A stretch of 64,000 bases of DNA from Deltaproteobacteria bacterium. Its GTDB lineage: Bacteria > Desulfobacterota > Desulfobacteria > Desulfobacterales > Desulfosarcinaceae. This document shows positions 330-55,857 of the stretch, one piece after another (position 1 is the first letter of the stretch; the number at the start of each line of letters is the position of its first letter). Where the stretch lies: positions 186,001-250,000 of the forward strand of contig JAKALP010000005.1 in the NCBI GenBank assembly GCA_021824175.1. The letters are read 5' to 3'. Below the pieces are notes generated by a model. It made no database searches. It was given only the letters and a program-made list of their open reading frames with translations, and was not told the origin of the DNA. The position numbers and the translations under genes were made by a program.

Positions 330-1277
330 TTATGCCTTGGCGGCGCCTGTTTTCCCAGATAGAATTTTCTCTATTTCGCCTTGAAGGAAAGCATAACTGG
401 TATTGCAATTGTGGCAGCGGATCTCCACGGGAAATGGTCCGTTGTGAGCCAAATCCTGCAAATCGGCTAACGGCAGCATAGCCAACATGGATTGAATTTG
501 AGCCTGATTGCAATGGCACATGAACTCGACGCCGCGCGAATCGATCAAGCGAGGGGCTTGTCCGGCAAAAGTTTGCATCAACCATTGGCTGGGAAATGTC
601 GCTTCATTGACTACATGGCCCATGGAAGGCAAATCGCGCACCAGGCTTTCCAGTTGCGCTAAAACGCCTTCATCCGCCCCCGGCAATGCCTGGAAAAAAA
701 GACCGCCGGCGCCCTGGACCTCTCCCTGTTTATCGAAGACGACGCTCAAGGAAAAGGATGTCGGTAATTGCTCCGATTTTAAGAAGTATACCGCCAAATC
801 CTTGGCCATACTGCCATGTTCCATCATCACCTTGCCAGTAAAGGGATGCTTGGCGTCTTCCAGATATTTGGTGACCGCAAGAAATCCAGCGCCGAAAAAG
901 GGAGAGAGATTAAAACTCTCCAAGGGCTTGTGGATGGGGATGGGCACCTGCTTCAGGTAGCCGCGTACCTCTCCGAAAGCATTGCACTCTACTGTCAATC
1001 CCTTGATGGGGCCAGAACACTCCACGCCAATGTGAATGCGATCGCGGCCTTTGAGGCCGGCCGAGAGCAGCGCCGCCGCCAGGTAGGCATGGCCCAGGGC
1101 CAGAGTCTCCAAAATTCCCAGCTCATGATTCCAGCGCATTTCATTGACCATGCGCGTGCCGTTGACCACCACGCCGCGAATGGTATCCTGGGCCATGACA
1201 AAATGATAAAGTTTGTCACGGGTGCTGGCCAGCAGTTGTTCTTTGAGTGTGTCGCCGAAGATCTTCTTCTTAATCAT
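330..1277 (-). CDS. hslO: Hsp33 redox-regulated chaperone
   Basis: A 315-residue protein matching Hsp33, the cytosolic holdase chaperone activated by oxidation. The zinc/redox switch is intact at the C-terminus: Cys254-His-Cys256 and Cys288-x2-Cys291. The N-terminal core has the family's GHAYLAAALL-type helix region. I chose ATG at 1277 because AAGGGG sits 7 nt upstream; a GTG at 1304 overlapping the upstream gene's stop would add nine residues. It follows the lytic transglycosylase gene by about 25 bp, so the two are probably cotranscribed. Length is normal for the family. Confidence 0.93.
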   Translation of the reverse strand: MIKKKIFGDTLKEQLLASTRDKLYHFVMAQDTIRGVVVNGTRMVNEMRWNHELGILETLALGHAYLAAALLSAGLKGRDRIHIGVECSGPIKGLTVECNAFGEVRGYLKQVPIPIHKPLESFNLSPFFGAGFLAVTKYLEDAKHPFTGKVMMEHGSMAKDLAVYFLKSEQLPTSFSLSVVFDKQGEVQGAGGLFFQALPGADEGVLAQLESLVRDLPSMGHVVNEATFPSQWLMQTFAGQAPRLIDSRGVEFMCHCNQAQIQSMLAMLPLADLQDLAHNGPFPVEIRCHNCNTSYAFLQGEIEKILSGKTGAAKA

Positions 1278-1300
1278 GTAACCCCTTAACCTTTCTCTAC

Positions 1301-2440
1301 TCACGGCCCATGCGGTTTATCGGTCTGCGGGTAAATCACCAACCGATCACCCGGACGAAGGGTTTTGCGCATATCGATGCGGTTCCAGATGAGCAACGCG
1401 GCCAAGGGGACATTGAAATTGCCGGCAATGGAGGAGAGTGAATCGCCTTCCTGCACAATATAAATGCGCTGTTCGCGCTCCTGTTGATGGGCGGCAGACA
1501 GCTCTTTGAAGCGGTCAGCAAACCCTTCGGCGCTTCCCTTTGGCACACGCATCAAATGGCTTCCGGCCTGAAGATAATGGCCGCGCAAATGGGGATTGAG
1601 ATCCTTGATCTCTTTGAAATAAGAATGGGCCGCGTCCGCTACAACCCGAATGGGTGTTTCCTGCGCGCATTCCACCTGCACGGTATCGAAGACCAGTGGC
1701 TTGTAGAAATCCTGGGACGAGATGTTGAACCCATAAGTCTTGGGGTTTTCAATCAACTGTTTGACGGCCTGAATGCGAAAAATGAACCTCTGGGTTTCCA
1801 GTGGCAGATAAAGCTTGTAGAAATCATCGGTCTTCTGCTCCAGGATTTCGGCCTCCAGGCCCTCTTCGCCCATGTTGTAAGCCGCCAGGGCCAAAGTCCA
1901 TGAAGAGAATTTGTCATGCAGGGTCATCAAATACTTCAAGGCCGCGGGTGTCGACAGGAACAGGTCCCGGCGCTGGTCGATGAATTCATCCACCGTCAAG
2001 CCGTTATTGCGAGCCGTCTCCGGCAATAGCTGCCAGAACCCGATGGCGCCCCTGGATGAGCCCGCGTGGGGAAGCAAGGCGCTCTCCACGATGGGCAGGT
2101 ATTTGATATCTTCGGGCATGCCGGCCTTTTTAAGCTCTTGAGCGATAAATGGCAAAAAGCGCGTGCTGCGTTTGAGCCACAAAATGGCTTGGGGTTTGTC
2201 TCCCAAGACCAGCAGCATCTCCTTTTCATAGCTCTCGCGCACATCCGACAGGCCCGTGGGCACAGTCTCACCGCACAGGGCAAGGCCTTTGGGCATCGCT
2301 ACATTGAATTCAGCGCTCGAACCCAGAAGGGTCGCCGGCATCATTAAAAGCAAAAGCAGCCATAACCAAAGAAAGCATTTGGAACCGAATGTTTTGCCGA
2401 TCAGTAAATGGCGAATCACCTGTTGTGATTTAGAATGCAT
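1301..2440 (-). CDS. MltD-like lytic transglycosylase with LysM
   Basis: A 379-residue secreted murein hydrolase. A signal/anchor segment covers about residues 20-42. The GH23 SLT-type domain follows, with the catalytic Glu119 in PIVESAL, the conserved RGAIGFWQLLPETA motif (about 130-143) and LALAAYNMGE further on. A single LysM domain (about 326-370, EGDSLSSIAGNF) would bind peptidoglycan. E. coli MltD carries two LysM domains, so this is a shorter relative. It acts in the periplasm, cleaving glycan strands to 1,6-anhydromuramic ends. It is upstream of hslO on the same strand. Confidence 0.9.
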   Translation of the reverse strand: MHSKSQQVIRHLLIGKTFGSKCFLWLWLLLLLMMPATLLGSSAEFNVAMPKGLALCGETVPTGLSDVRESYEKEMLLVLGDKPQAILWLKRSTRFLPFIAQELKKAGMPEDIKYLPIVESALLPHAGSSRGAIGFWQLLPETARNNGLTVDEFIDQRRDLFLSTPAALKYLMTLHDKFSSWTLALAAYNMGEEGLEAEILEQKTDDFYKLYLPLETQRFIFRIQAVKQLIENPKTYGFNISSQDFYKPLVFDTVQVECAQETPIRVVADAAHSYFKEIKDLNPHLRGHYLQAGSHLMRVPKGSAEGFADRFKELSAAHQQEREQRIYIVQEGDSLSSIAGNFNVPLAALLIWNRIDMRKTLRPGDRLVIYPQTDKPHGP

Positions 2441-2521
2441 CAGGATAGCTCCATCCCCAAAGTCTGCCCGCTATTTTTAGTGATTGACGGGCTTGGTTGC
2501 TGCGATTCGGGTTGTCCATTC

Positions 2522-3502
2522 CTAAAATGTGAAGCAACACTCCGGGTCCGCTCCATCGAAAAAACGCTGGACCACCTCTTGATATTGAGCCGCGCCGTGC
2601 ACCTTGCGAATCTGCTTGAGCAGGTGCGCGCCATCGCAAAAGGCGCCCGCGAAATACCCCCAATACCCTTTCATACTATCCGCCAGGTGGACCGGACCAT
2701 GGCGTACAGCGGCATAGCGTTCAAACAGGGTATCATGAAATCGCCTGAAACGATCCAGACAGTCTATGCCTCCTGGCGCCCCCCTACCCTTAATCATGAC
2801 CGGCAAATACGGGTTGGCCAGCACGCCCCGTCCGATCATCCAGGTTGAAAGCGCGGGAAAGCGGGCTTGCAGCGCCTTAAAATCCCGTACTTCATTAACA
2901 TCGCCATTGTATATCACATCGGCCCGAAGAGATGCCAAACACTGCTCAAAAACATCCAGATCAACACGCCCTGTATACATCTGCTCCCCGGTGCGCGGAT
3001 GAATGATGATTTCTTTAATCGGGTAGCGGTTGAACACGGGAATCAATTTAAAAAATTCGTCCGGCTGCCGCCGGCCCAGGCGAGTCTTGATGCTGAGCTG
3101 GTTGGGGATCTTCTTAAATACCGCCTCAAGAAAAGCGTCGATCAAATCCGGATGGGGCAGCAGACCCGACCCTCGCATTTTCTTGGCCACCTTGGCAAAG
3201 GGGCAACCCAGATTCCAATTGACCGTCCCATGGCCGAGATCAAACAAGGCCTTGGACAAGGTGATGAACCGGTCGGCCGTCTTGCTCAAGATTTGCGGCA
3301 CAATGGGCATCAACCGGTTGTTTTCAGGCAGTACTTCTTTGAGCTGGCTGGCCTTGAGGCGGGTGCCGGCGATGGTGGTTAAAAAGGGAGTGACCGCCCA
3401 ATCAATGCCGTCGAAGAACTCAGCGTAGGTGTTACGAAATATAGCGCCGGTCAAGCCCCGCAAGGGAGCCAAACAAATCCGAGGTTCAGACCGTTCATTC
3501 AT
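2522..3502 (-). CDS. tRNA-dihydrouridine synthase
   Basis: A 326-residue FMN-dependent enzyme that reduces uridine in tRNA to dihydrouridine. It begins with the APLRGLTGAIFRN phosphate/flavin region, and carries the catalytic Cys100 in NWNLGCPFAK followed by MRGSGLL, which is diagnostic for Dus proteins. Later motifs include KTRLG, IIHPRTGEQMYTG and VIYNGDV. The proposed start is ATG 3502; the open frame extends further upstream only by running through the preceding lipoprotein gene. The short TIM-barrel variant with I-HPRTGEQ-Y is DusC-like, but the exact position modified cannot be told from sequence. Confidence 0.92.
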   Translation of the reverse strand: MNERSEPRICLAPLRGLTGAIFRNTYAEFFDGIDWAVTPFLTTIAGTRLKASQLKEVLPENNRLMPIVPQILSKTADRFITLSKALFDLGHGTVNWNLGCPFAKVAKKMRGSGLLPHPDLIDAFLEAVFKKIPNQLSIKTRLGRRQPDEFFKLIPVFNRYPIKEIIIHPRTGEQMYTGRVDLDVFEQCLASLRADVIYNGDVNEVRDFKALQARFPALSTWMIGRGVLANPYLPVMIKGRGAPGGIDCLDRFRRFHDTLFERYAAVRHGPVHLADSMKGYWGYFAGAFCDGAHLLKQIRKVHGAAQYQEVVQRFFDGADPECCFTF

Positions 3503-3509
3503 AGCGAGC

Positions 3510-3953
3510 CTACGGGCCCATGCGCGCCTGTAATTCCAGGGCACGCTGCCGGGCGACGAAGACGCGGTCGTTGAGCAAGGTTTTGAATTTGAACCAATTG
3601 AAGGCGGCTTGGCTGCCGAACCCGCAGATCGGCACCGTTGGATCAAACTCCCCGCCCATGCCCTGCAGCGTATCGGCCTGCAACAGCCCGGAATCCACAT
3701 ACAACGCCATATTGTTGCCCATGTGGGTGATGAACTCCGGAGACAACCGCACCATGGCCCGGGTAACATAACCGGCTCCTTGATCAAGGGACAAGACCTC
3801 GCCGACCCGTTCGCCTTTGAAATACACCCCCTGCTCACCCAGCTGGACCAGCCCTTCAAACATCACCGCATGGCCTTCTTGCTTGGCTTTGGCGCAACCC
3901 GAAAACAGAGCCAATATCGACAAGAGCAACAGGATTCCAACCCGACGCCGCAT
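3510..3953 (-). CDS. MCE/MlaD-domain-like lipoprotein
   Basis: A 147-residue predicted lipoprotein: MRRR, a hydrophobic segment, and a lipobox ending at Cys20 (F-S-G-C). The segment HAVMFEGLVQLGEQGVYFKGERVGEVLSL resembles the short beta-barrel of MCE domains such as MlaD, which bind lipids in the periplasm. It is far shorter than MlaD and lacks the C-terminal helical needle. It ends 7 bp before the dihydrouridine synthase start, so the two are likely cotranscribed, though no functional link is evident. MCE assignment is moderate; a generic small lipoprotein is the alternative. Confidence 0.6.
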   Translation of the reverse strand: MRRRVGILLLLSILALFSGCAKAKQEGHAVMFEGLVQLGEQGVYFKGERVGEVLSLDQGAGYVTRAMVRLSPEFITHMGNNMALYVDSGLLQADTLQGMGGEFDPTVPICGFGSQAAFNWFKFKTLLNDRVFVARQRALELQARMGP

Positions 3954-4688
3954 AAATTCCTCCTGATCCCCCGGATCGCCGGGGCAACGCTAATGGATCA
4001 TTAAAAAGGAGTTTTCGTTACCATACCTGGCAGGACTAGGGCAAGCAAAACACCGCCGGTCAGAGCAGGCGCGTTGATGCGTTGATTAGTTGATGGGTTG
4101 GCGGGTTGATTCGTTGGCGTCTTCTCTCCAATCTACCTCTTAACACTTCCCCATAGAGGTTATTGAAAAATCTTTGTGCCTTTATGCTTTTCCAGAAGTA
4201 CAATTGCCATGATCCACCAATTACTTCCTATTTCCAAATTTCTACCGAGCTGCGCAAAGTTGAATGACCGCGACGGCAATTTTACGGATTGCCTCTCGAT
4301 CTGTTCCTGAAACCTTATGCACCTGTTGCTTGCAAGGCGGGCGGAATGGACTTAATCGAAGGGTCATGATGTTATCCTTTCATTGCTATCGGCGGAAATT
4401 TTTTATCTGCTGTGTGGCATGTGTCGGAATGAAATCAGAAGCAATGTCTCCGCATCCGTTGAACTCGGTTAAGTTTACCTGGACCGATTTAAGCATACCC
4501 ATTCGTAAAATCAACAAAAACCATCTGATCCGAACACTACTGAATTCTTTTCGGCACCATCTTGAAAATACGATGCGGTCGGCCTTAACTAAAAGCACTA
4601 TTATTCATACTTGTTTAATCAGGATCTGTTAACAAGTTTGTTTTTTAGATCTAACATGGCCGAAAAATGCCAGTTAAATGGATTGCGT
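3954..4688 (+). other. 735-bp stretch with no convincing gene
   Basis: No protein here resembles a known family. One 122-residue open frame (4264-4632) is present but is Cys/Arg-rich at its start, lacks a good ribosome site and does not look like a real protein. A 7-bp-period GTTGATT tract lies at 4071-4119. The rest is AT-rich towards 4688 and probably holds the promoter of the metal-efflux cluster. Confidence 0.4.
4071..4119. repeat. Heptad TTGATT tract, copy 1
   Basis: Imperfect tandem units of 7 bp built on GTTGATT / GTTGATG / GTTGGCG are seen here. The same motif recurs between genes at 48370, 54144 and 61361 in this window. Confidence 0.6.
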
Positions 4689-4988
4689 ATGCATCGGCTG
4701 AATCGTCACATTTTGATTGTGACTCTCTTTTTTGAGTTATCTGTTCTGGTCCAAACGGCCGAAGCTGTGACCTGCCTTGCCCTAACGGCATGCGCGCCGA
4801 TGCCCCACGCCGGCCACCACCGCAGTGATCATTCGCCTGGCCACCACGCCTCAAAAAACAGCGACCATCACAATTGTCTATGTCTGCAATGGACCATGGA
4901 GGCGGAATCTTGCTCCACGGAGCTGGTTAAAGCCATACCGTTCCGGCCATCGAGCATCTGTCAAACGCCAATAATGCCGCCGCCGTGA
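4689..4988 (+). CDS. Small His/Cys-rich secreted protein, metal-efflux associated
   Basis: From ATG 4689 this is a 99-residue protein with a signal peptide (about residues 8-26, ending AEA), then a Cys/His-rich segment: CLALTACAPMPHAGHH, HSPGHHASKNSDHHNC, with eight His between residues 40 and 61. Small His-rich exported proteins of this sort commonly precede RND-type copper/silver efflux genes, and cusB begins about 330 bp downstream. A metal-binding role is inferred from composition and context only. An in-frame ATG at 4656 is an alternative start, but would put extra residues before the signal peptide. Ribosome site is weak. Confidence 0.5.
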   Translation: MHRLNRHILIVTLFFELSVLVQTAEAVTCLALTACAPMPHAGHHRSDHSPGHHASKNSDHHNCLCLQWTMEAESCSTELVKAIPFRPSSICQTPIMPPP

Positions 4989-5319
4989 CCACTCTTCAAT
5001 CCGTTGCGTTAGACATCTTTTCCCATAACAACAAGTACCCGCTCCTCGATCATCTTGTCTTACCCTCCCCATGCCCGCTTTATCTCCAGATCCAAACTCT
5101 GCTGTGTTGAATCAATAAAATCCTACTTTAATGCGCCGTTGCGGCACGTGAAGTACTATCTTCGCGTCCGCGGGGTCCCAGTCCCCGATTTCAGGGTATT
5201 CAGTTCACCGTGTCGTCAGTGTTTTGCTTCTGACGGACCGAGCAAATCCCTCTCCAATGCGATCGGCGCCACGGCCGTGAACGATGATTCACCATTTGAT
5301 CAAAGAAGAAGGAGCCAAA
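4989..5319 (+). other. 331-bp gap upstream of cusB
   Basis: No gene is supported. The stretch ends with the AAGAAGGAG ribosome site of cusB. A short open frame across it only reflects overlap with the cusB reading region. Confidence 0.4.
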
Positions 5320-6471
5320 ATGAAACCCGCTCTGCGCCGAGCATTGTCTTTGCTGTGTATGCCAATACTATTCCTGGCCGTCGGTGCTTTATTGGCCGAA
5401 ATTCCTGCTTTTGGACTCTCCAAATCCGCCCTGGCGTCGGACGCGCCGCTCAAGGCCGGCATGATCGATCCCAAGACCGGCAAGAAGATTAAATACTGGG
5501 TGGCGCCCATGGACCCCACCTATATCCGCTATGAACCCGGCAAATCGCCCATGGGCATGGACCTGGTGCCGAAGTACGAAGAAGAAGACGAAGCAAAGGA
5601 ACCCGCCTCAACCATTCGCATCGACCCGGTCACCATCCAGAATATGGGGGTGCGCTACGGCATGGTGGCCCGCGCCCACGCCCAGCGCATGCTCAATGCC
5701 GCGCGCCAGCGCCTGGAGTACTGGGATCTCACTGAAGCCCAAATTCAGGATATCGAGAAGAAAGGCGCGATCTACAAAGAGTTGTCGGTCTACTCACCGA
5801 CCGCTGGCGTCGTAATAAAAAAAGATGCTTACGAAGGTCACTACGTGACGGCCGGCGCCCATCAATTTGATATCGCCGATCTTTCAACAGTGTGGGTCGA
5901 TGCAGATATTTATGAATATGAACTGCCCTGGGTGCACAAGGGCATGCCGGCCCGCATGGAGCTGCCCTACCTGCCCGGCCGGACCTTCTCCGGCCAGGTC
6001 CTGTTTATCTACCCCTATCTGGACACCAAAACCCGCACCGCCCGCCTGCGTCTGACTTTCGACAACCGCGACGGCCAGCTCAAACCGGGAATGTACGCCA
6101 ACGTCTATCTGCAATCAGCGCTGCCGAGCGATGCCCTGGTCATCCCGCAGGAAGCGGTCATCGACAGCGGTGTGCGCAAACTGGTTTTCGTGGCTCGCGA
6201 CAAAGGCAAATTCGAACCGCGGGAAGTACAGCTGGGCGTGGAAGGCGACAACTATGAGATCCAGGTGCTCAAAGGCTTGAAGGAGGGCGAGAAGATCGTG
6301 GTCTCGGGCCAATTTATGCTCGATTCGGAAAGCCGTCTGCGCGAAGCAATCCAGAAAATGCTGGAACCGCAAAAGGCCGAATCCCAGGCCGAAGATCTGG
6401 ACAAGAAGAATATGACCAAGGATGACGACTTGGAGATGAAAGACATGGATATGGGAAATACGCCCAAATGA
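5320..6471 (+). CDS. cusB: CusB-type RND adaptor with internal deletion
   Basis: A 383-residue membrane-fusion protein of the CusB family, which links the inner-membrane RND pump to the outer-membrane channel. It has a signal segment (about 8-40), then the heavy-metal-binding domain typical of this family (YWVAPMDP, KSPMGMDLVPKY, residues 59-86). The C-terminal barrel domains are well conserved (IADLSTVWVDADIYEYELPW, FMLDSESRLREA). Between residues about 118 and 119 the sequence jumps from the start of the first barrel (NMGVRYGMVAR) straight to the hairpin region (AHAQRMLNAARQRL). Relatives have roughly 70-80 residues there, covering the first lipoyl half-motif. The frame is kept, but function is doubtful. 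Ribosome site AAGAAGGAG precedes ATG 5320. Confidence 0.8.
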   Translation: MKPALRRALSLLCMPILFLAVGALLAEIPAFGLSKSALASDAPLKAGMIDPKTGKKIKYWVAPMDPTYIRYEPGKSPMGMDLVPKYEEEDEAKEPASTIRIDPVTIQNMGVRYGMVARAHAQRMLNAARQRLEYWDLTEAQIQDIEKKGAIYKELSVYSPTAGVVIKKDAYEGHYVTAGAHQFDIADLSTVWVDADIYEYELPWVHKGMPARMELPYLPGRTFSGQVLFIYPYLDTKTRTARLRLTFDNRDGQLKPGMYANVYLQSALPSDALVIPQEAVIDSGVRKLVFVARDKGKFEPREVQLGVEGDNYEIQVLKGLKEGEKIVVSGQFMLDSESRLREAIQKMLEPQKAESQAEDLDKKNMTKDDDLEMKDMDMGNTPK

Positions 6472-6579: not shown

Positions 6580-8603
6580 ATGATCGCAAAAAACATTGAA
6601 CTGTCCATTCTGAATAAATTCATGGTCCTGCTGGCAACTCTGTTCGTCATTGCCGCGGGCATTTTCGCCATTGCGCGCATCCCGCTGGATGCCATCCCCG
6701 ATTTGTCGGATGCGCAGGTGATCATCTTCACCGAGTTTCCGGGCCAGGCGCCCCAGGTGGTCGAAGATCAGGTCACCTATCCGCTGACCACGGCCATGCT
6801 GGCGGTGCCATACGCCAAAGTCGTGCGCGGCTATTCGTTTTTCGGGCTCTCTTTTGTCTACGTGATCTTCGAGGACGGCACGGACCTCTACTGGGCCCGC
6901 AGCCGGGTGCTGGAGTATCTCAATTTTGTCTCCGGCCGTCTTCCCCAAGGAGTCACGCCCTCTCTGGGACCAGATGCCACGGGCGTGGGCTGGGTGTACG
7001 AATACACCCTGGAGAGCGACCGCCATGACCTGGCCCAGCTGCGCTCGATCCAGGACTGGTTCCTGCGCTACGAGCTGACCAGCGTGCCGGGCGTGGCTGA
7101 GGTGGCATCCATCGGGGGCTACGTCAAGCAGTACCAGGTCATCGTGGACCCCAACCGTCTGCGCGCCTTCAACATTCCGTTGCAGATGGTGCGCAACGCC
7201 ATCCAGCGCAGCAACCGCGATGTCGGCGGCCGCCTGGTGGAGATGGGCGAGACCGAATTCATGGTGCGGGGTCTGGGATACATCAAGAATATCGACGATC
7301 TCTACAACATTCCCCTCAAAGTCGATGACCAGGGCACGCCCGTGTTGCTGCGCAACGTGGCCACGGTGAAGATCGGCCCCGAGCTGCGGCGCGGCCTGGC
7401 CGACAACAACGGCGAGGGGGAAACGGTCGGCGGCGTGATTGTCATGCGCTACGGCGAAAACGCCCTGAAGGTCATCGAAAACGTCAAACAGCGGCTGCAC
7501 CAGCTCGAGGCCAGCCTGCCCGCGGGCGTGCACCTGCGCAGCGTGTATGATCGTTCCGGCCTGATTTTGCGGGCCGTGCACAATCTGAAGCACACGCTGA
7601 TCGAAGAGAGTTTGATCGTCGCTCTGGTCTGCATTTTGTTCCTGGTCCACTTTCGCAGCGCCCTGGTGGGTATCCTCACCCTGCCCCTGGGCGTATTCAT
7701 CAGTTTCATCATCATGAGCGCGGTGGGCGGCATGAATATCACCCAAACCGTCGAGGGCCAGGAGCGCTACCCGGTCAACCTGCGCTACGGCAGCGAGCTG
7801 CGCGATACACCCGAAAAGCTGCGGCGCATCCTGGTGCCCACGCCCCTGGGGGCCCAGATTCCCATCGGCCAGCTGGCTGACATCCGCATCGTCAAGGGGC
7901 CACCGGTGGTCAAAAGCGAGAACGCCCGGCATACGGCCTGGGTCTATGTGGATATCAAGGGAATTGACGTCGGCTCCTTTGTCAAGGCCGCCCAGCAGGC
8001 CGTGAGCGCCAAAGTCAACCTGCCACCGGGCTACAGTCTGCTGTGGAGCGGGCAGTATGAGTACATGGTGCGGGCCCAGAAACGCCTGATGATCGTGGTG
8101 CCCATGACCCTGATCATCATCTTCGTACTGCTCTACTTCAATTTAAAAACATCACCGAGAGCCTCATCGTCATGCTCAGCGTGCCCTTTGCCCTGACCGG
8201 CGGCTTCTGGCTCATGGAACTGCTGGGATACAACATGAGCGTGGCCGTGGGTGTAGGGTTCATTGCCCTGGCCGGGGTGGCCGCTGAAACCGGTGTGGTG
8301 ATGCTGATCTACCTGGATATCGCCTACGAGAAGTACAAGGCCCAGTACGGGGATCAGTTCAACCGCGACCATTTGCAGGCAGCCATTGAAGAAGGCGCGG
8401 CCCTGCGGGTGCGGCCCAAAATGATGACCGTAGTGGCCATCATGGCTGGCCTGATGCCCATCATGTGGTCCCACGGCACGGGCTCGGAAGTAATGAAACG
8501 CATTGCCGCGCCCATGGTGGGCGGCATGGTCAGCGCCACCATTCTCACCCTGATCGTGGTGCCGGCCATCTACGGAATCTGGAAAGGACGGAAGATAAAG
8601 TGA
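6580..8603 (+). pseudogene. cusA: CusA-type RND pump, internally deleted and frameshifted
   Basis: Starts at ATG 6580 after GAGGA with a clear CusA N-terminus and first periplasmic domain. At about 7717 (residue ~379) it passes from the end of the second membrane helix (GVFISFIIMS) directly into AVGGMNITQTVEGQ, which in intact pumps lies about 300-330 residues later. Membrane helices 3-6 and part of the second periplasmic loop are therefore missing, in frame. At the A-run 8145-8149 the frame is lost; adding one A restores NITESLIVMLSVPFAL, which continues in the other frame to TGA 8603. Intact CusA proteins are over 1000 residues, so this cannot encode a normal pump. The deletion makes it a pseudogene even if the frameshift is a sequencing error. 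Confidence 0.85.
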
Positions 8604-8687: not shown

Positions 8688-9167
8688 ATGCGTAAAAGTA
8701 TCTTTATCACGACCATCGTATTTGCTCTCTGGCTCATCCCCGGCCGCCGAAGGCCATGAGGGTGAGCACCAAATGGGTTCAAACATAAGATGGAGGGCAT
8801 GGAGAACAAGCAAGACATGGGCGGCATGAACGAATTCAAACACAGTGCCACGGTGGACGGTATCCGGGCCGAGTTCGAAGTGATGAGCCTGGCCAGCATG
8901 AACATGAAAGACCCCCAGGGCAATACCCACCACATCATGGTCAAGTTCTTCAAGGAGGGCATGGACCATCCCATGCAAGGCGTGGAGGGTAAAATCAAAG
9001 TCATTGGCCCCGATAAGAATGAGCAGACCAATGCCCTGAAGGATTACAACGGCATCCTGGCCGCCAGCTTTACTTTCAAAGAGAAAGGCGATTACGGTGT
9101 CATTTGTCTCTTCAAAACCGGTGACCAGAAGCATACCGCGAAATTCTGGTACACCCTGAAGGAATAA
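8688..9167 (+). pseudogene. Met-rich periplasmic protein of Cus cluster, frameshifted
   Basis: ATG 8688, well placed after AAGGAGGAATC, starts a signal peptide (MRKSIFITTIVFALWLI) that stops at TGA after 24 codons. A second frame supplies SPAAEGHEGEHQMG, and a third frame from about 8786 supplies the body KMEGMENKQDMGGMNEF to TAA 9167. Two single-base changes (about 8736 and about 8783) would join them into one protein of roughly 158 residues. The body is rich in Met and His (SLASMNMKDPQGNTHH, EGMDHPM) and ends KFWYTLKE, consistent with a periplasmic copper-binding accessory. Only the body, from ATG 8790, is open as it stands. Confidence 0.65.
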
Positions 9168-9179
9168 AAGGAAACCGGC

Positions 9180-10473
9180 ATGAAACCACTCCATCACGTT
9201 GCCAAAATTTTACTTCTCAATATCATCCTGCTGATCATGATTGTGGCCCACGCCGCGGCCGAAGAGCTCCCGCTCACCGTTTCGCCGGAGCTGGCGGCCC
9301 TGGTCAAGGAAGGACTTGAAAACAACCAGCAGCTTCGCAGCCAGCACTCCCGCGTGAAGGCCCTGAAGGCCGAAATCCCAACAGCCGGCGCCTGGGATGA
9401 CCCCATGTTCGGCGTGGCGTTGCTCAATGTGCCCACCGACACCTACAGCTTTAATCAGGAACCAATGACCCAGAAGCAGATCAGCCTCGGCCAGAAGTTC
9501 CCCTGGTTCGGCAAACTGGACCTCAAAACCCAGTACGCCGTACTGGAAGCCAAAAAAGCCGAAGCAAAATGGACCATGCAGCAATTGGCCCTGGCCAAGC
9601 AGATCATTTCAAGCTACTACGAGCTGGCCTTCATCGGCCGCAGCCAGGCCATCAACCAGGAGCTGATGGACAAGCTCAATCAGTTGCTGCAGGTCTCGGA
9701 AAGCCGCTATGCCGGCGGTAAAGGGTTGCAGACCGATGTGCTGCAATCCCAGGTAGAGTTGAGCCGTTTGCGCGAAGAACAGATCGATCTGGCCAACAAC
9801 CGCCAGATGGCGGAGCGCCGGTTGAACGAACTGCTGAACCGACCCGAGTTTCAAACCATCCCGCCGGCCGCGGCACCGGCTGTGCCAGAGTGGGTCATGA
9901 ACGATCAGCAGGTGGGACAGCGCGCCCTGACTCACAATCCTGAACTGCTGCTGCGACACCTGGCCGTCGACCAGGCGGCGGTCGGCGTGGAAATGACGCA
10001 CAAATCCTACTACCCCGATTTCGATGTGCGGGTCGCCTATGGCTTCCGCGAGCCGGCCAGCAACGGAATGGAACGCGCCGACTTTCTCTCCGCCGGCATC
10101 AATCTGAATATCCCCATCTGGCAGGGTCAAAAACAGAACCCGCGCCTCTGAGGCGGCCCTCAAGAACCAGCAGGCCGCCTCAGAGGCGCTGCGCGAACTG
10201 CAAACCGCCCTACCCCATCGCATCGAAGCAGTGATGGAGTCTTTGAATAACCTGAAGAAGAACGAGCAACTCTACACCACTACCCTCTTATACCAGGCCG
10301 AGCAGTGGGCTGACTCAGCCCAGGCCGCCTACGAAGTCGGCAAACTGGAATTCAGCACCCTGATCAACGCCCAGATGCAAGTACTGCGCATGCGGCTCAA
10401 AGCTGACATGTACCGCTTCCGCCTCTACCAGAAACGCGCTGAAATGGAAGAGATGATGGGAGGCGCAATATGA
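9180..10473 (+). pseudogene. cusC: CusC/TolC-type outer-membrane channel, frameshifted
   Basis: ATG 9180 starts a signal peptide and an outer-membrane efflux protein (KQISLGQKFPWFGKL, VDQAAVGVEMTHKSYYPDFDV). The first frame ends at TGA 10151 just after LNIPIWQGQKQN. Removing one base in the C-rich run near 10137 restores RASEAALKNQQAASEAL and the second helical hairpin (QAAYEVGKLEFSTLINAQ), which continues to TGA 10473. The joined product would be about 430 residues, the usual length. It follows the Met-rich gene by 12 bp. With the damage in cusA and cusB this fits cluster decay, but this single frameshift alone could be a base-call error. Confidence 0.75.
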
Positions 10474-10554: not shown

Positions 10555-11481
10555 TCAAGCTGAAACGGTCACCGGGAGAGCGTTGCGCTCATCGATGCGC
10601 ATCCGGTCCTGGCGCATCAAGTCGATGAACTTCTGCTGAAAAGCCGATAAAGTGCTTCCTTTCAGATAGAACACCCGCCACACCAGATGGATGCCTTTGG
10701 GGCCGATGGGGATGGCCGCCAATTGTCCGGCCGCCAGGTAGGAGGCCACCGCCCAACGCGGGGCCATGCTGACCCCCAGACCCGCCTTGACCAGCTCGAT
10801 GATGGCGTGGGGCTGTTCAATCTCCATGATGGCTTCGGGCTCAATCAGGGCCCCGGGCCACACCGCCAGCGAGCAATCACTCAACGAAGAGGCCCTCGCC
10901 ACGATCACTTTGATCCCCGACACATCCACGGGCATGACATGGCGTTTGGTGCTCAACGGATGATCCGGTGCGGCGATGGCCACCAACTCATCTTTGAACA
11001 GATCGATGGAGTCCAACTCCGTTCCAGTGGCGGGGGTCGCCGTCACCACCATATCGAAGCGTTTGGCCAAGAGATCCTCGCGGCAATGTAGGCTGGTGCT
11101 GATAGCGAGATCCACCTTGGGATAATTTTTCTGAAAATGGGCCATGACGGCGGGCAGCCATTGAAAGCAGAAAAGGCACGACACCCCGATGCGCAGCGAA
11201 CCGGTCTCGCCGTGGACGATTTTCGCAATCGCCACCTCGGCGGTGTCGAGTTCCTGGAGGATGCTCTCGGCCGATTGATGCAGACGCGCGCCCGCGTGGG
11301 TCAGGATCATGCGCTTTTTGGAACGATGGAAAAGTCCGGCGCCCAGGCACTTTTCGATGTCGAGCAGCTGCCGGCTCAACGCCGGCTGGGAGAGATGCAG
11401 GCGCTGGGCGGCGCGGGTCAGGTTCTCGGTTTCGGCGATGGCCTTGATCATTTTCAGGTGTTTTATTTCGAGGCAGGACAT
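10555..11481 (-). CDS. LysR-family transcriptional regulator
   Basis: A 308-residue LysR regulator: N-terminal winged helix (AQRLHLSQPALSRQLLDIEK, residues about 25-44) and a periplasmic-binding-like effector domain from about residue 90. It is transcribed divergently from the AhpD-like and iron-sulfur flavoprotein genes, starting about 145 bp away, and probably controls them. A 12-bp palindrome lies in the shared upstream region. The N-terminus resembles MetR/CysB-like members in the HLSQPALSRQL segment, but the effector cannot be predicted. Confidence 0.9.
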   Translation of the reverse strand: MSCLEIKHLKMIKAIAETENLTRAAQRLHLSQPALSRQLLDIEKCLGAGLFHRSKKRMILTHAGARLHQSAESILQELDTAEVAIAKIVHGETGSLRIGVSCLFCFQWLPAVMAHFQKNYPKVDLAISTSLHCREDLLAKRFDMVVTATPATGTELDSIDLFKDELVAIAAPDHPLSTKRHVMPVDVSGIKVIVARASSLSDCSLAVWPGALIEPEAIMEIEQPHAIIELVKAGLGVSMAPRWAVASYLAAGQLAAIPIGPKGIHLVWRVFYLKGSTLSAFQQKFIDLMRQDRMRIDERNALPVTVSA

Positions 11482-11509
11482 GGGCGCTCCGGATGTCTAT
11501 AACCATTAT

Positions 11510-11521
11510 TTATCATGATAA
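11510..11521. promoter_or_regulatory. Palindrome TTATCATGATAA, candidate LysR operator
   Basis: A perfect 12-bp palindrome sits in the AT-rich divergent region 29 bp upstream of the LysR start codon. Position and symmetry fit a LysR-type autoregulatory site; this is inferred from context. Confidence 0.4.
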
Positions 11522-11625
11522 TAAAAACAATGCATTTTACTTATCGTTTAGGCCATACTATGGTGCCCGTCAAGTTCAATCCACGACAACCGGCTTTTCA
11601 AAGCCCCGACCCAAAGGAGAAGATT

Positions 11626-12156
11626 ATGGGACTGATTCAAACCGTAGATCCGCAAAAAGCCCAGGGCGAAATGAAAGAAGCATTCGACTTCTTTAAAAAG
11701 ACCATCGGCACCATTCCGGCCCCCATGGCCATGTTCAGCGCCAGCCCTGCCCTCTTCAAGATGCAACTGCAGTCGTTGAATTACTTCATCAAGCACCCTA
11801 CCCTGGGGTTCCCGCTGCTATCCAGTATCCGCTACTTGGTGGCCAGGCAATACGACTACCAGTTTTGCACCGGCTTCAACAAAGTTTTTCTCCAAAAGCA
11901 AGGCCTCAGCGAAGAAGATATTCAGAAGATGAATCAGGACCCCGAAAGCGCGCCGCTGGATGACAAAGACCGTGCCATGCTCGCCTTTGTGATGAAAGCC
12001 GTTAAAGCGCCCCAATCCGTGTCCCAGCAGGATATGGATCAATTGCATGCCATGGGCTGGGGCGACAGTGATGCCCTCGATGCCATGATGCACGCCGGGG
12101 GCCTGATCGCAGCCAGCATCCTGATGAAAACCTTCAAGTTGGATATCGCCTATTGA
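11626..12156 (+). CDS. AhpD-like / carboxymuconolactone decarboxylase-fold protein
   Basis: A 176-residue all-helical protein starting at ATG 11626 after AAAGGAGA. The pattern (FSASPALFKMQLQSLNYF, FPLLSSIRYLVARQYDYQFCTGFN, DKDRAMLAFVMKA) is that of the AhpD-like superfamily. Known alkylhydroperoxidases use a C-x2-C...H motif; here only Cys81 is present, so a peroxidase reaction of the AhpD type is unlikely. It is followed 40 bp later by an iron-sulfur flavoprotein and faces a LysR gene. The pairing suggests a small redox or detoxification operon, with no defined substrate. Confidence 0.65.
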   Translation: MGLIQTVDPQKAQGEMKEAFDFFKKTIGTIPAPMAMFSASPALFKMQLQSLNYFIKHPTLGFPLLSSIRYLVARQYDYQFCTGFNKVFLQKQGLSEEDIQKMNQDPESAPLDDKDRAMLAFVMKAVKAPQSVSQQDMDQLHAMGWGDSDALDAMMHAGGLIAASILMKTFKLDIAY

Positions 12157-12196
12157 GGAAGAGACAAAAAACCAGCTTCACAGAAACGGAGGTTCT

Positions 12197-12802
12197 ATGA
12201 AAATCATCGGCATCAACGCCAGTCCCCGGAAGAAGGCCAACACCCAGACCCTCATCGAAGCCGCCCTGGCCGGTGCGGCCGAAAAAGGCGCCGAAACCCG
12301 GCTGGTGAACTTGAGGGAATTGAAGATTAACGGCTGCCTGGGATGCGAAGGGTGCAAGAAGCAGTTGGGCAAGTGCGTGCAGCCCGACGACCTGACTCCC
12401 CTGCTGCAGGAGATGACCGCCTTTGACGCCATCGTTCTGGGCACGCCGGTCTACTGGTACCATGTGAGCGCCCAGTTCAAGATGCTGGTGGACCGGCTCT
12501 ACAGCTTTTTCGAACTGGGCGCGGACCCCCAGACCGGTGCCCAGACCATCAAATCGGCATTTCCGGGCGGCAAAAAACTGCTGCTCGTCGTCTCCCGCGG
12601 CGACGACGAACCGTCGCCCATGTACGGGCAGTTTTACAAGCACCTGGACGAATGGCTCAACATCGTGCCCTTCGCCCTGGGGGCCAAACACTTCGAATGC
12701 CTGCACCAGTACGGTGCCCACCTGGAGCGTAAGTCGGCGGCTGGCGATGCCGACCTGCTGCAGAAGGCCAGGACCGCCGGCGCCAAGCTGGTGGGAAAGT
12801 AA
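12197..12802 (+). CDS. Iron-sulfur flavoprotein (NADPH-dependent FMN reductase family)
   Basis: A 201-residue flavodoxin-fold protein with the FMN phosphate loop NASPRKKANTQTL (8-20) and a compact cysteine motif C47-x2-C50-x2-C53-x6-C60. This matches the iron-sulfur flavoprotein family (FMN plus one 4Fe-4S cluster) found in anaerobes and linked to electron transfer and oxygen or peroxide defence. GTPVYWYHVSAQFKMLVDR is the second FMN-binding region. AACGGAGG precedes the start. It is likely cotranscribed with the AhpD-like gene. Confidence 0.85.
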   Translation: MKIIGINASPRKKANTQTLIEAALAGAAEKGAETRLVNLRELKINGCLGCEGCKKQLGKCVQPDDLTPLLQEMTAFDAIVLGTPVYWYHVSAQFKMLVDRLYSFFELGADPQTGAQTIKSAFPGGKKLLLVVSRGDDEPSPMYGQFYKHLDEWLNIVPFALGAKHFECLHQYGAHLERKSAAGDADLLQKARTAGAKLVGK

Positions 12803-47295: not shown

Positions 47296-47547
47296 TTATC
47301 CTGTCTTGCCGCAGCATGATCCCGGGCCGGCGCAGCCGGCATGGCCGGGGACGCTGCCGCAACATCCGGTATCCCCTACGCCAGGAAAGACTTGGGAGGT
47401 CTTGCCGGTCAGGGAGCTGGTGGCTGAGATCAGTCGATGGATATTGGTGCTACCACAAGAGGGGCACGCGATTGCTTTCTGACTGTTCAGCTTGATCACT
47501 TCACCGCAAAATCCGCATTGGCGGCATTCAATTTCAAAGATAGGCAT
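47296..47547 (-). CDS. FmdB-like zinc-ribbon protein
   Basis: 83 residues: MPIFEIECRQCGFCGEVIKL and IACPSCGSTNIHRL are the two zinc knuckles of the FmdB family; a Gly/Cys-rich tail (GCCGSVPG, GPGSCCGKTG) follows. It starts 3 bp after the NifU-like stop. In this cluster it may handle iron or a cofactor, but that is inference. Confidence 0.8.
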   Translation of the reverse strand: MPIFEIECRQCGFCGEVIKLNSQKAIACPSCGSTNIHRLISATSSLTGKTSQVFPGVGDTGCCGSVPGHAGCAGPGSCCGKTG

Positions 47548-47550
47548 GAT

Positions 47551-47967
47551 TTAACCGTCCTTAATTGTGGATTTAAGCATGCTCTTGTATGCATCGGCAA
47601 TTGCTTCGCCCAGGGTGTTGACCGCCAGCCGGGCACAATGGAGGTGGTCTTCCGGCAATCCATCCAGCTCGCGGGCCACCTCTTCGGGTGACAAAAGCAA
47701 GGCCTCATCCATGCTCTTGCCTTCAATCAGCGCGCACACCGCGTCGGCGCATGCCACCGTGTATACGCAGCCCGTGGGAATGTGACCAACCGCCGCAATG
47801 GTGCTCCCTTCAAGTCGCACGGTCATTTCTACTGTATCGCCGCAACTACCCACGCCAAGTGCTTTGCCTTGGGCGCCTTCGACGGCGCCCTGATGGACCG
47901 GCGAACAGGAATAACGCCGAAAGCGTTCGCTGACCTGCTCTTTATGTTCAAACTCTGAATGTCCCAT
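47551..47967 (-). CDS. NifU/IscU-like scaffold protein, first copy
   Basis: 138 residues with the three scaffold cysteines Cys42 (GSCGDTVEM), Cys67 (PTGCVYT) and Cys111 (LHCARLAVNTL) plus Asp44. This is the NifU N-terminal/IscU module, which assembles transient 2Fe-2S/4Fe-4S clusters. No NifU C-terminal part is present. It begins 3 bp after the NifX gene stop, so the pair is likely coupled. A related copy is at 58350. Confidence 0.8.
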   Translation of the reverse strand: MGHSEFEHKEQVSERFRRYSCSPVHQGAVEGAQGKALGVGSCGDTVEMTVRLEGSTIAAVGHIPTGCVYTVACADAVCALIEGKSMDEALLLSPEEVARELDGLPEDHLHCARLAVNTLGEAIADAYKSMLKSTIKDG

Positions 47968-47970
47968 GGC

Positions 47971-48348
47971 CTAGTGACCACCACCGCAAGTATGCTCCTG
48001 ACTGAATTGCATCAGCCGACCTTCAATGGCGGCCTGAACCGCCTCGCCCACGGTGCGGGCGCCGCCGCCGTAATAGACCTGGATGCCCACCTGGTTGAAG
48101 CCCATCAGGGGTCTGAACCCCATGCCGCCGGCGATCAGCTGTTGAACGCCTTTGCTCGCCAAGTATTGTACCGGCGCCATACAGCCGCCTTGTTGATGGG
48201 GGACATTGGGGATCACGGCCACATGTCCGATGGCACCGTCCCGAACCGTCACCAGCGTATACATGTCACAATGACCGAAATGCTGTCCCACCGGCGCATC
48301 CAGTCCGCCGGGCTGTTCCGAAGGAATCGCGATTAAAAGTGAACTCAT
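47971..48348 (-). CDS. NifX/MTH1175-like protein (orange-protein family), first copy
   Basis: 125 residues: SLLIAIPSEQPGGLDAPVGQ, FGHCDMYTLVTV, and the tail CGGGH. It matches the dinitrogenase iron-molybdenum cofactor / MTH1175 family to which Desulfovibrio orange protein (ORP, a Mo-Cu sulfide protein) belongs. It is in a cluster with two MinD-type ATPases and a sigma-54 regulator, the setting described for ORP. Cofactor content cannot be told from sequence. Other NifX domains lie at 50216 and 56368. Confidence 0.8.
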   Translation of the reverse strand: MSSLLIAIPSEQPGGLDAPVGQHFGHCDMYTLVTVRDGAIGHVAVIPNVPHQQGGCMAPVQYLASKGVQQLIAGGMGFRPLMGFNQVGIQVYYGGGARTVGEAVQAAIEGRLMQFSQEHTCGGGH

Positions 48349-54537: not shown

Positions 54538-55857
54538 ATGACCGATCAACCCATCAGACTTGGCCGCAAAAAGGAGAGCACCTTTTTGGACAGGGTCAAG
54601 GAAATACTGCCCCAAGGCGGCAATCTCAATTTGTGTCTCACTTGCGGCGCCTGCTCATCCGGCTGCCCGGCCACTGGCCTGGAAAATATGGACCCTCGCA
54701 AGTTTTTGCGCATGGCTGCCCTGGGCATGGATGATGAAATCCGTAAATCCAAGTGGGTCTGGATGTGCTCCATGTGCCAGCGCTGCATCTATGTCTGCCC
54801 CATGCAGATCAACATTCCCCAGCTGGTCTACAATGCCCGGGCCTTGTGGCCCAGAGATGAACGTCCCAAAGGGATTTTGGGTTCCTGCGACATGGCCTTG
54901 CGCAACGCCAGCACCAGTGCCATGGGCACCGAGCCGGAAGATTTCCGTTTCGTGGTCGAAGATGTGCTGGAAGAGTATCGCGAAGCACAGCCGGAATTCG
55001 CCGACATGGAAGCGCCCATCGACAAAGAGGGCGCGGAGTTCTTCTTGAACCAGAACTCCCGCGAGCCGGTCACCGAACCTGATGAGATGGTGCCGTTGTG
55101 GAAAATTCTGCATCTGGCCGGCGCCAACTGGACTTATGGTTCCAAAGGTTGGGCCGGAGAGAACTACTGCATGTTTTTGGCGGACGACGAGTCCTGGAAG
55201 CACATCACCACCACCACGGCCAAACAGGCGGACCACCTGGGATGCAAGATCTTTCTCAACACGGAGTGAGGGCACGTGACCTTCTCAGTCCTGGCAGGAC
55301 TGAAAAAATTCAACATCCCGCACAACTTTGTGGTGAAGAACATTTACGAATACTACGCCAAGTGGATACGGGAGGGCAAACTCAAAGTCAATTCAGACTG
55401 GAACAAGGAACTCAAAATCAAATTCACGGTTCAAGACCCTTGCCAGATCGTACGAAAAACTTATGGCGACGCCATTGCCGAAGATCTGCGCTTCGTGGTC
55501 AAATCGGTGGTCGGAGAGGAGAACTTCGTCGACATGTACCCAAACCGCTCCAATAACTTCTGCTGCGGCGGAGGAGGAGGATTTCTCCAATCAGGGTACA
55601 AGGAGGAACGGTTGGAGTATGGCCGGCTCAAAGACCAGCAGATTCAGAACACCGGGGCTGATTACTGCATTGCCGGTTGCCACAACTGCCATGCCCAGAT
55701 TCACGAACTCAGCGAGCATTATGGTGCGGGTTACGGCGTGGTCCACCTCTGGACCCTGATTTGTCTTTCTTTAGGCATTTTAGGCCCAAAGGAACGTGAA
55801 TATCTCCGCGATGATTTGAAAGAAGTCAATGTATTTCATCCGGAGACGGAGATGTAA
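54538..55857 (+). CDS. HdrC/HdrD-like Fe-S protein with in-frame UGA (selenocysteine)
   Basis: Read through TGA 55267-55269, this is one 439-residue protein. Residues 1-100 have two 4Fe-4S sites (Cys33, 36, 39, 43 and Cys77, 80, 83, 87), as in HdrC. The rest is HdrB/HdrD-like: the UGA is codon 244 in the motif NTE-U-GH, where relatives have NTECGH; the second half has QDPCQIVRK and the CCG segment NFCCGGGGGFLQSG...GCHNCHAQ. The codon after UGA is in the same frame, so no indel is needed. Selenocysteine-containing Fe-S oxidoreductases of this kind are known in Deltaproteobacteria. AAGGAGG lies 10 nt before ATG. Standard gene callers would give two genes, 54538-55269 and 55276-55857. Confidence 0.87.
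55285..55303 (+). promoter_or_regulatory. SECIS-like hairpin
   Basis: TCAGTCCT and AGGACTGA form a perfect 8-bp stem with loop GGC. The loop begins 24 nt after the UGA and has G in its first two bases, as in bacterial SECIS elements. It lies inside the coding frame. Confidence 0.65.

Follow-up and report, generated by a model that had tools for sequence, protein, structure and literature searches.

The window, that is, the whole 64,000-nt stretch analysed here, is part of a contig of 276 kb in an assembly of 6.07 Mb (61 contigs, 99.5% complete, 3.4% contamination) and contains a cus-type operon in the order cusB-cusA-small gene-cusC (Table 1). This order is unusual too, since cusC follows the small gene here, whereas among relatives that show both cusB and a cusC-like gene, the best match to cusC is situated upstream of cusB. 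Damage affects each of the four operon genes and none of the seven flanking genes examined. The earlier note had reported internal deletions in cusB and in one neighbouring gene; the second gene is cusA, and the damage goes beyond what was described there, since cusA and cusC are also frameshifted (cusA by 1 nt) and the small gene contains two in-frame stops.

Table 1. Features of the damaged operon and its flanks (window coordinates)
Feature	Position	Strand	Remarks
hsp33-mltD-dus-lipoprotein flanking block	330..3953	-	syntenic in genus; each aligns as one piece
cusB-like adaptor gene	5320..6471	+	~83 codons lost in frame; N-terminal HMBD kept
cusB deletion junction VAR/AHAQ	5668..5679	+	exact breakpoints unresolvable
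cusA-like RND pump gene, damaged	6589..8603	+	
CATCATCATG, single repeat copy at the junction of the 1077-nt cusA deletion	7707..7716	+	
1-nt cusA frameshift at a run of five A	8142..8149	+	homology alignment
Small gene that follows cusA in relatives	8688..9167	+	two in-frame stops between signal peptide and body
cusC/TolC-like outer-membrane factor gene	9180..10473	+	frameshift ~10130-10150
LysR regulator, AhpD-like and flavodoxin-like reductase genes	10555..12802	LysR -, others +	apparently intact

Lesions of the four genes and state of the flanks

The cusB frame is open over its whole length (383 aa) and, when translated, reads NMGVRYGMVAR-AHAQRMLNAARQ across the junction, which confirms the direct joining seen earlier. 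The gene was compared in an alignment of 64 rows, of which 9 had no NMG/SMG anchor at the junction column and were dropped; every one of the 55 rows that were kept is longer here, by 83 residues in 45 cases and by 70-80 in the other 10. The 70-80 residues first attributed to relatives thus hold for the minority of rows and are slightly low for the closest relatives. The truncated form occurs in 0 of these 55 rows, several of which are one gene under two locus ids, while L002 and L003 are the paralogue from the same genome (contig C37) and L066 is N-masked at the junction; the related public loci (n = 45) are mostly labelled Desulfobacterales or Deltaproteobacteria. Pfam matches the heavy-metal-binding N-terminal domain (PF19335), and the match to the CusB/HlyD barrel-sandwich profile (PF16576, HlyD_D23) covers only positions 68-214 of 214. 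Instead of a complete lipoyl/barrel-sandwich domain with its hairpin, the window CusB therefore has one from which about 83 residues are absent, and the view that part of this region is missing stands. The lost block comprises 25 columns that are invariant among 24 relatives, and outside it 109 of 111 invariant columns are matched; in a leave-one-out control each of the 24 relatives missed between 0 and 7 invariant columns. The 1.3 kb upstream of cusB (3985-5283) has little coding signal; within it, a short open frame rich in His (4611-4988) may be a further relic of the operon.

The window cusA lacks 359 residues (1077 nt). Measured against plus-strand relatives more than 75% identical (n = 22), the loss is 1077 nt in 21 comparisons and 1042 nt in the remaining one, L056. 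Aligned with one relative, the gene falls into three pieces (residues 5-390, 743-889 and 888-1035), and the frame, which in an intact gene would run uninterrupted for about 1040 residues and include the whole ACR_tran domain, is split into 552 and 180 codons, with profile positions 381-736 missing. What is left is well conserved, 306 of the 314 invariant columns covered being matched. The frameshift was located by homology, a codon-usage scan for frame switches having proved too blunt (the spacing at this site resembled that of overlapping genes). The heptamer TTTAAAA, which we take to be a motif that in principle permits -1 slippage, lies exactly there (8142-8148); programmed -1 frameshifting was ruled out, as the 359 residues are absent as well. 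In L056 (3692-7481) cusA is itself split, one frame being 640 and the other 459 long, and the cusB frame is short (242 aa), as it is in L055 (938-1531, 246 aa); broken cus copies, or errors, thus occur on contigs of other MAGs too.

Further downstream, the two stops of the small gene may result from two frame changes that cancel each other. In cusC, no one continuous frame encodes both OEP repeats; the frame is split at about 10140 and leaves an open frame of 327, compared with 430-778 in the other outer-membrane-factor loci found in the assembly, all 11 of which are open. Likewise, each of the 10 further RND loci detected is one uninterrupted open frame, of 1017-1143 codons. With these 10 and 11 loci open, genome-wide indel error was ruled out.

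On the left flank, hsp33, mltD, dus and the lipoprotein gene each align as a single piece in 5 of 6 genus stretches around mltD, the sixth (L096) being without a lipoprotein match. On the right, the AhpD-like and reductase genes each align in one piece with one relative, and the LysR gene matches its best LysR-family profile at positions 1-290 of 292. The copy of this LysR gene in another genome of the genus, G006, is fragmented (L097:7714-8235). Elsewhere in the window, an in-frame TGA at 55267 separates the open frames 54538-55269 and 55276-55857, which lie within the same run of coding sequence; the TGA may stand for selenocysteine, mark a broken gene or lie between two adjacent genes. A coding-like stretch on the minus strand (47326-48333) has two in-frame stops and is possibly another pseudogene or a pair of adjacent genes.

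The junctions of the two large losses

At the cusA junction the window reads TTCATCATCATGAGC, while relatives such as L070 have TTCATCATCATGGAA at the left end and GACATCATCATGACC at the right end of the segment that is missing here. Of 23 full-length cusA relatives, 9 carry the same sequence of 9 nt or more at the two ends, and in 5 of these it reaches 10 nt; the remaining 14 share 3-7 nt only. A separate count with another set of relatives found the repeat in 9 of 26. As background, 0.02% of 553,166 sampled in-frame position pairs in the same cusA genes share at least 9 nt, although the observed repeat is the best within a 50-nt zone, so that a fair chance value may be up to about 1% per relative. 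Comparison among these sequences suggests that the repeat was likely present in the ancestor of the window copy, and the mechanism that we infer as the most likely one is a slipped-strand, RecA-independent deletion between two short direct repeats. Because CATCATCATG encodes the residues IIM in both places and in the same frame, such a deletion is automatically in frame, and this loss, apparently mediated by a coding repeat, illustrates that selection is not needed for a large deletion to preserve the frame. In passages of PMC7063769 on E. coli plasmids, RecA-independent deletions between direct repeats fit a replication slippage model, with repeats of 35 and 82 bp that are longer than the 9-10 nt found in cusA.

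At the cusB junction, microhomology was unresolvable when the alignment was inspected by eye, because the relatives are too diverged at this site. On the reading favoured here, slippage between the short direct repeats most likely removed 1077 nt of cusA, the cusB block was lost by a probably similar event whose repeat is not reconstructable, and small indels broke the remaining frames of the operon.

When searched as an exact degenerate pattern in genomes drawn from a larger group, from which copies with other changes at the site would escape, the cusA junction was found in 0 of 388 other genomes of the order (1 of 389 when its own is included), and a deletion common to other species was dismissed on this basis. 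A junction seen in no other genome is also what a local assembly or consensus error would give, for instance in a low-coverage or strain-mixed stretch, with full-length genes in the cell. We regard such an error as unlikely, and the repeat itself speaks against it, as the k-mers used in assembly are usually longer than 9-10 nt.

A redundant operon, and decay weighed against error

Contig C37 of the same genome holds an open operon with cusC (435 aa), cusB (445 aa), cusA (1075 aa) and a small gene (174 aa) that is likened to the one in the window by position only. The window operon is dispensable because this complete cusC-cusB-cusA operon exists elsewhere in the genome. The C37 type of cusA, 66-67% identical to that of the window, occurs in G000 and in 5 of the 10 other genus genomes searched; the window type (80% identity) occurs in G000 and in one other, G004, among the same number; with completeness down to 64-91% in some of these genomes, the absences are soft. 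Since the C37 type is present in more genomes of the genus, the window operon is an extra, sporadic copy beside the more common one. A search for a plasmid source of near-identical DNA returned no close match, with 72-77% identity over 8-9% of the query in the best 20 of 26 records.

The locus thus shows several inactivating lesions while an intact copy exists elsewhere, as expected of a pseudogene operon, and we are fairly confident that it is a recently inactivated, redundant copper/silver efflux operon in decay, with its remaining sequence well conserved. The lesions lie in the assembled sequence; that they are present in the living cell as well, and accumulated under relaxed selection, is what this pattern suggests. 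Several findings count against decay: both large losses are multiples of three, for which the chance is 1 of 9; the repeat at the cusA junction is only 3-7 nt long in 14 of the 23 relatives; and the junction is confirmed by no second genome among the 389 of the order. The high conservation of what remains also fits sequence error in a live gene, as do the confinement of the damage to one 5-kb stretch and the position of one frameshift at a run of A. This stretch, however, ends at the edges of the operon, the genome is nearly complete with its other RND loci open, and the lost cusA and cusB pieces were not found in the assembly as separate fragments, the matches being the C37 paralogue and distant pumps and adaptors. 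A location of the missing pieces on another contig was ruled out, since besides the C37 paralogue the cusB block is spanned only by distant adaptors (23-28% identity). Of the two origins that the earlier note had offered, a common process is supported by the damage in all four genes, while assembly collapse is not supported, given the absence of fragments, the short repeat and the open RND loci.

Under decay, the very good conservation of the surviving cusB and cusA columns means that the process must be very young; the well-preserved remainder thus points to very recent damage or, less likely, to an error in one stretch. For annotation, the window copy should be recorded as a damaged operon, neither a working nor a minimal copper pump, and the copy on contig C37 should be the basis for predicting metal resistance in this genome.

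Comparison with E. coli Cus proteins and with decaying operons

E. coli CusB, the periplasmic adaptor of the CusCBA copper/silver pump (PDB 3NE5/3H94), and the window CusB have the N-terminal metal-binding region with three methionines in common, and the C-terminal part of the window protein aligns with the E. coli one as well. Between chain positions 102 and 182 of E. coli CusB, where parts of its lipoyl, barrel and hairpin regions lie, most residues have no counterpart in the window protein. Its three methionines correspond to M21, M36 and M38 of E. coli (equivalence judged by eye in the alignment; residue names as in passages of PMC6235853) and, with the HMBD, are in keeping with a CusB-type adaptor.

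Such a protein might have been selected as a stand-alone helper, the in-frame deletion having kept cusB open so that a small periplasmic Cu(I)/Ag(I)-binding protein could feed the intact pump of the C37 operon. The open frame and the methionines, if equivalent, agree with this, and so do passages of PMC4446572 and PMC6235853 in which the N-terminal 61 residues of E. coli CusB bind metal and confer partial resistance; were it true, the truncated CusB would be the natural counterpart of that E. coli fragment. We nevertheless hold it to be very improbable, as the adjoining partner genes are broken, the form is shared by none of the compared rows, and the C-terminal half would be a tail with low predicted confidence in its lipoyl part. 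AlphaFold gave a mean pLDDT of 58.8 and a pTM of 0.35 for the truncated protein (25 aligned sequences), compared with 69.1 and 0.49 for an intact relative (24 aligned sequences); block means were 31-48 in residues 151-190, the kept second half of the lipoyl region, and 81-92 in the equivalent blocks of the relative (231-280), both models being modest in quality and merely illustrating the loss. That the truncated CusB, having kept the three N-terminal methionines, still plays some residual role is conceivable but unlikely.

For the pump, the first remaining piece of the window cusA is 75-84% identical to the 22 relatives of Desulfobacterales type, and one of these, L061, aligns over its length with E. 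coli CusA (PDB 3T51/3K07), a heavy-metal RND pump; from E. coli CusA the window gene differs by the loss of the 359 central residues and by the frameshift before its last part. Decaying redundant operons, or pseudogene clusters, are a general kind in bacteria, which the window operon, most probably in decay, resembles in its several lesions, its dispensability and its unbroken neighbours. Altogether, it is nothing qualitatively different from such clusters, except that its decay seems very young.
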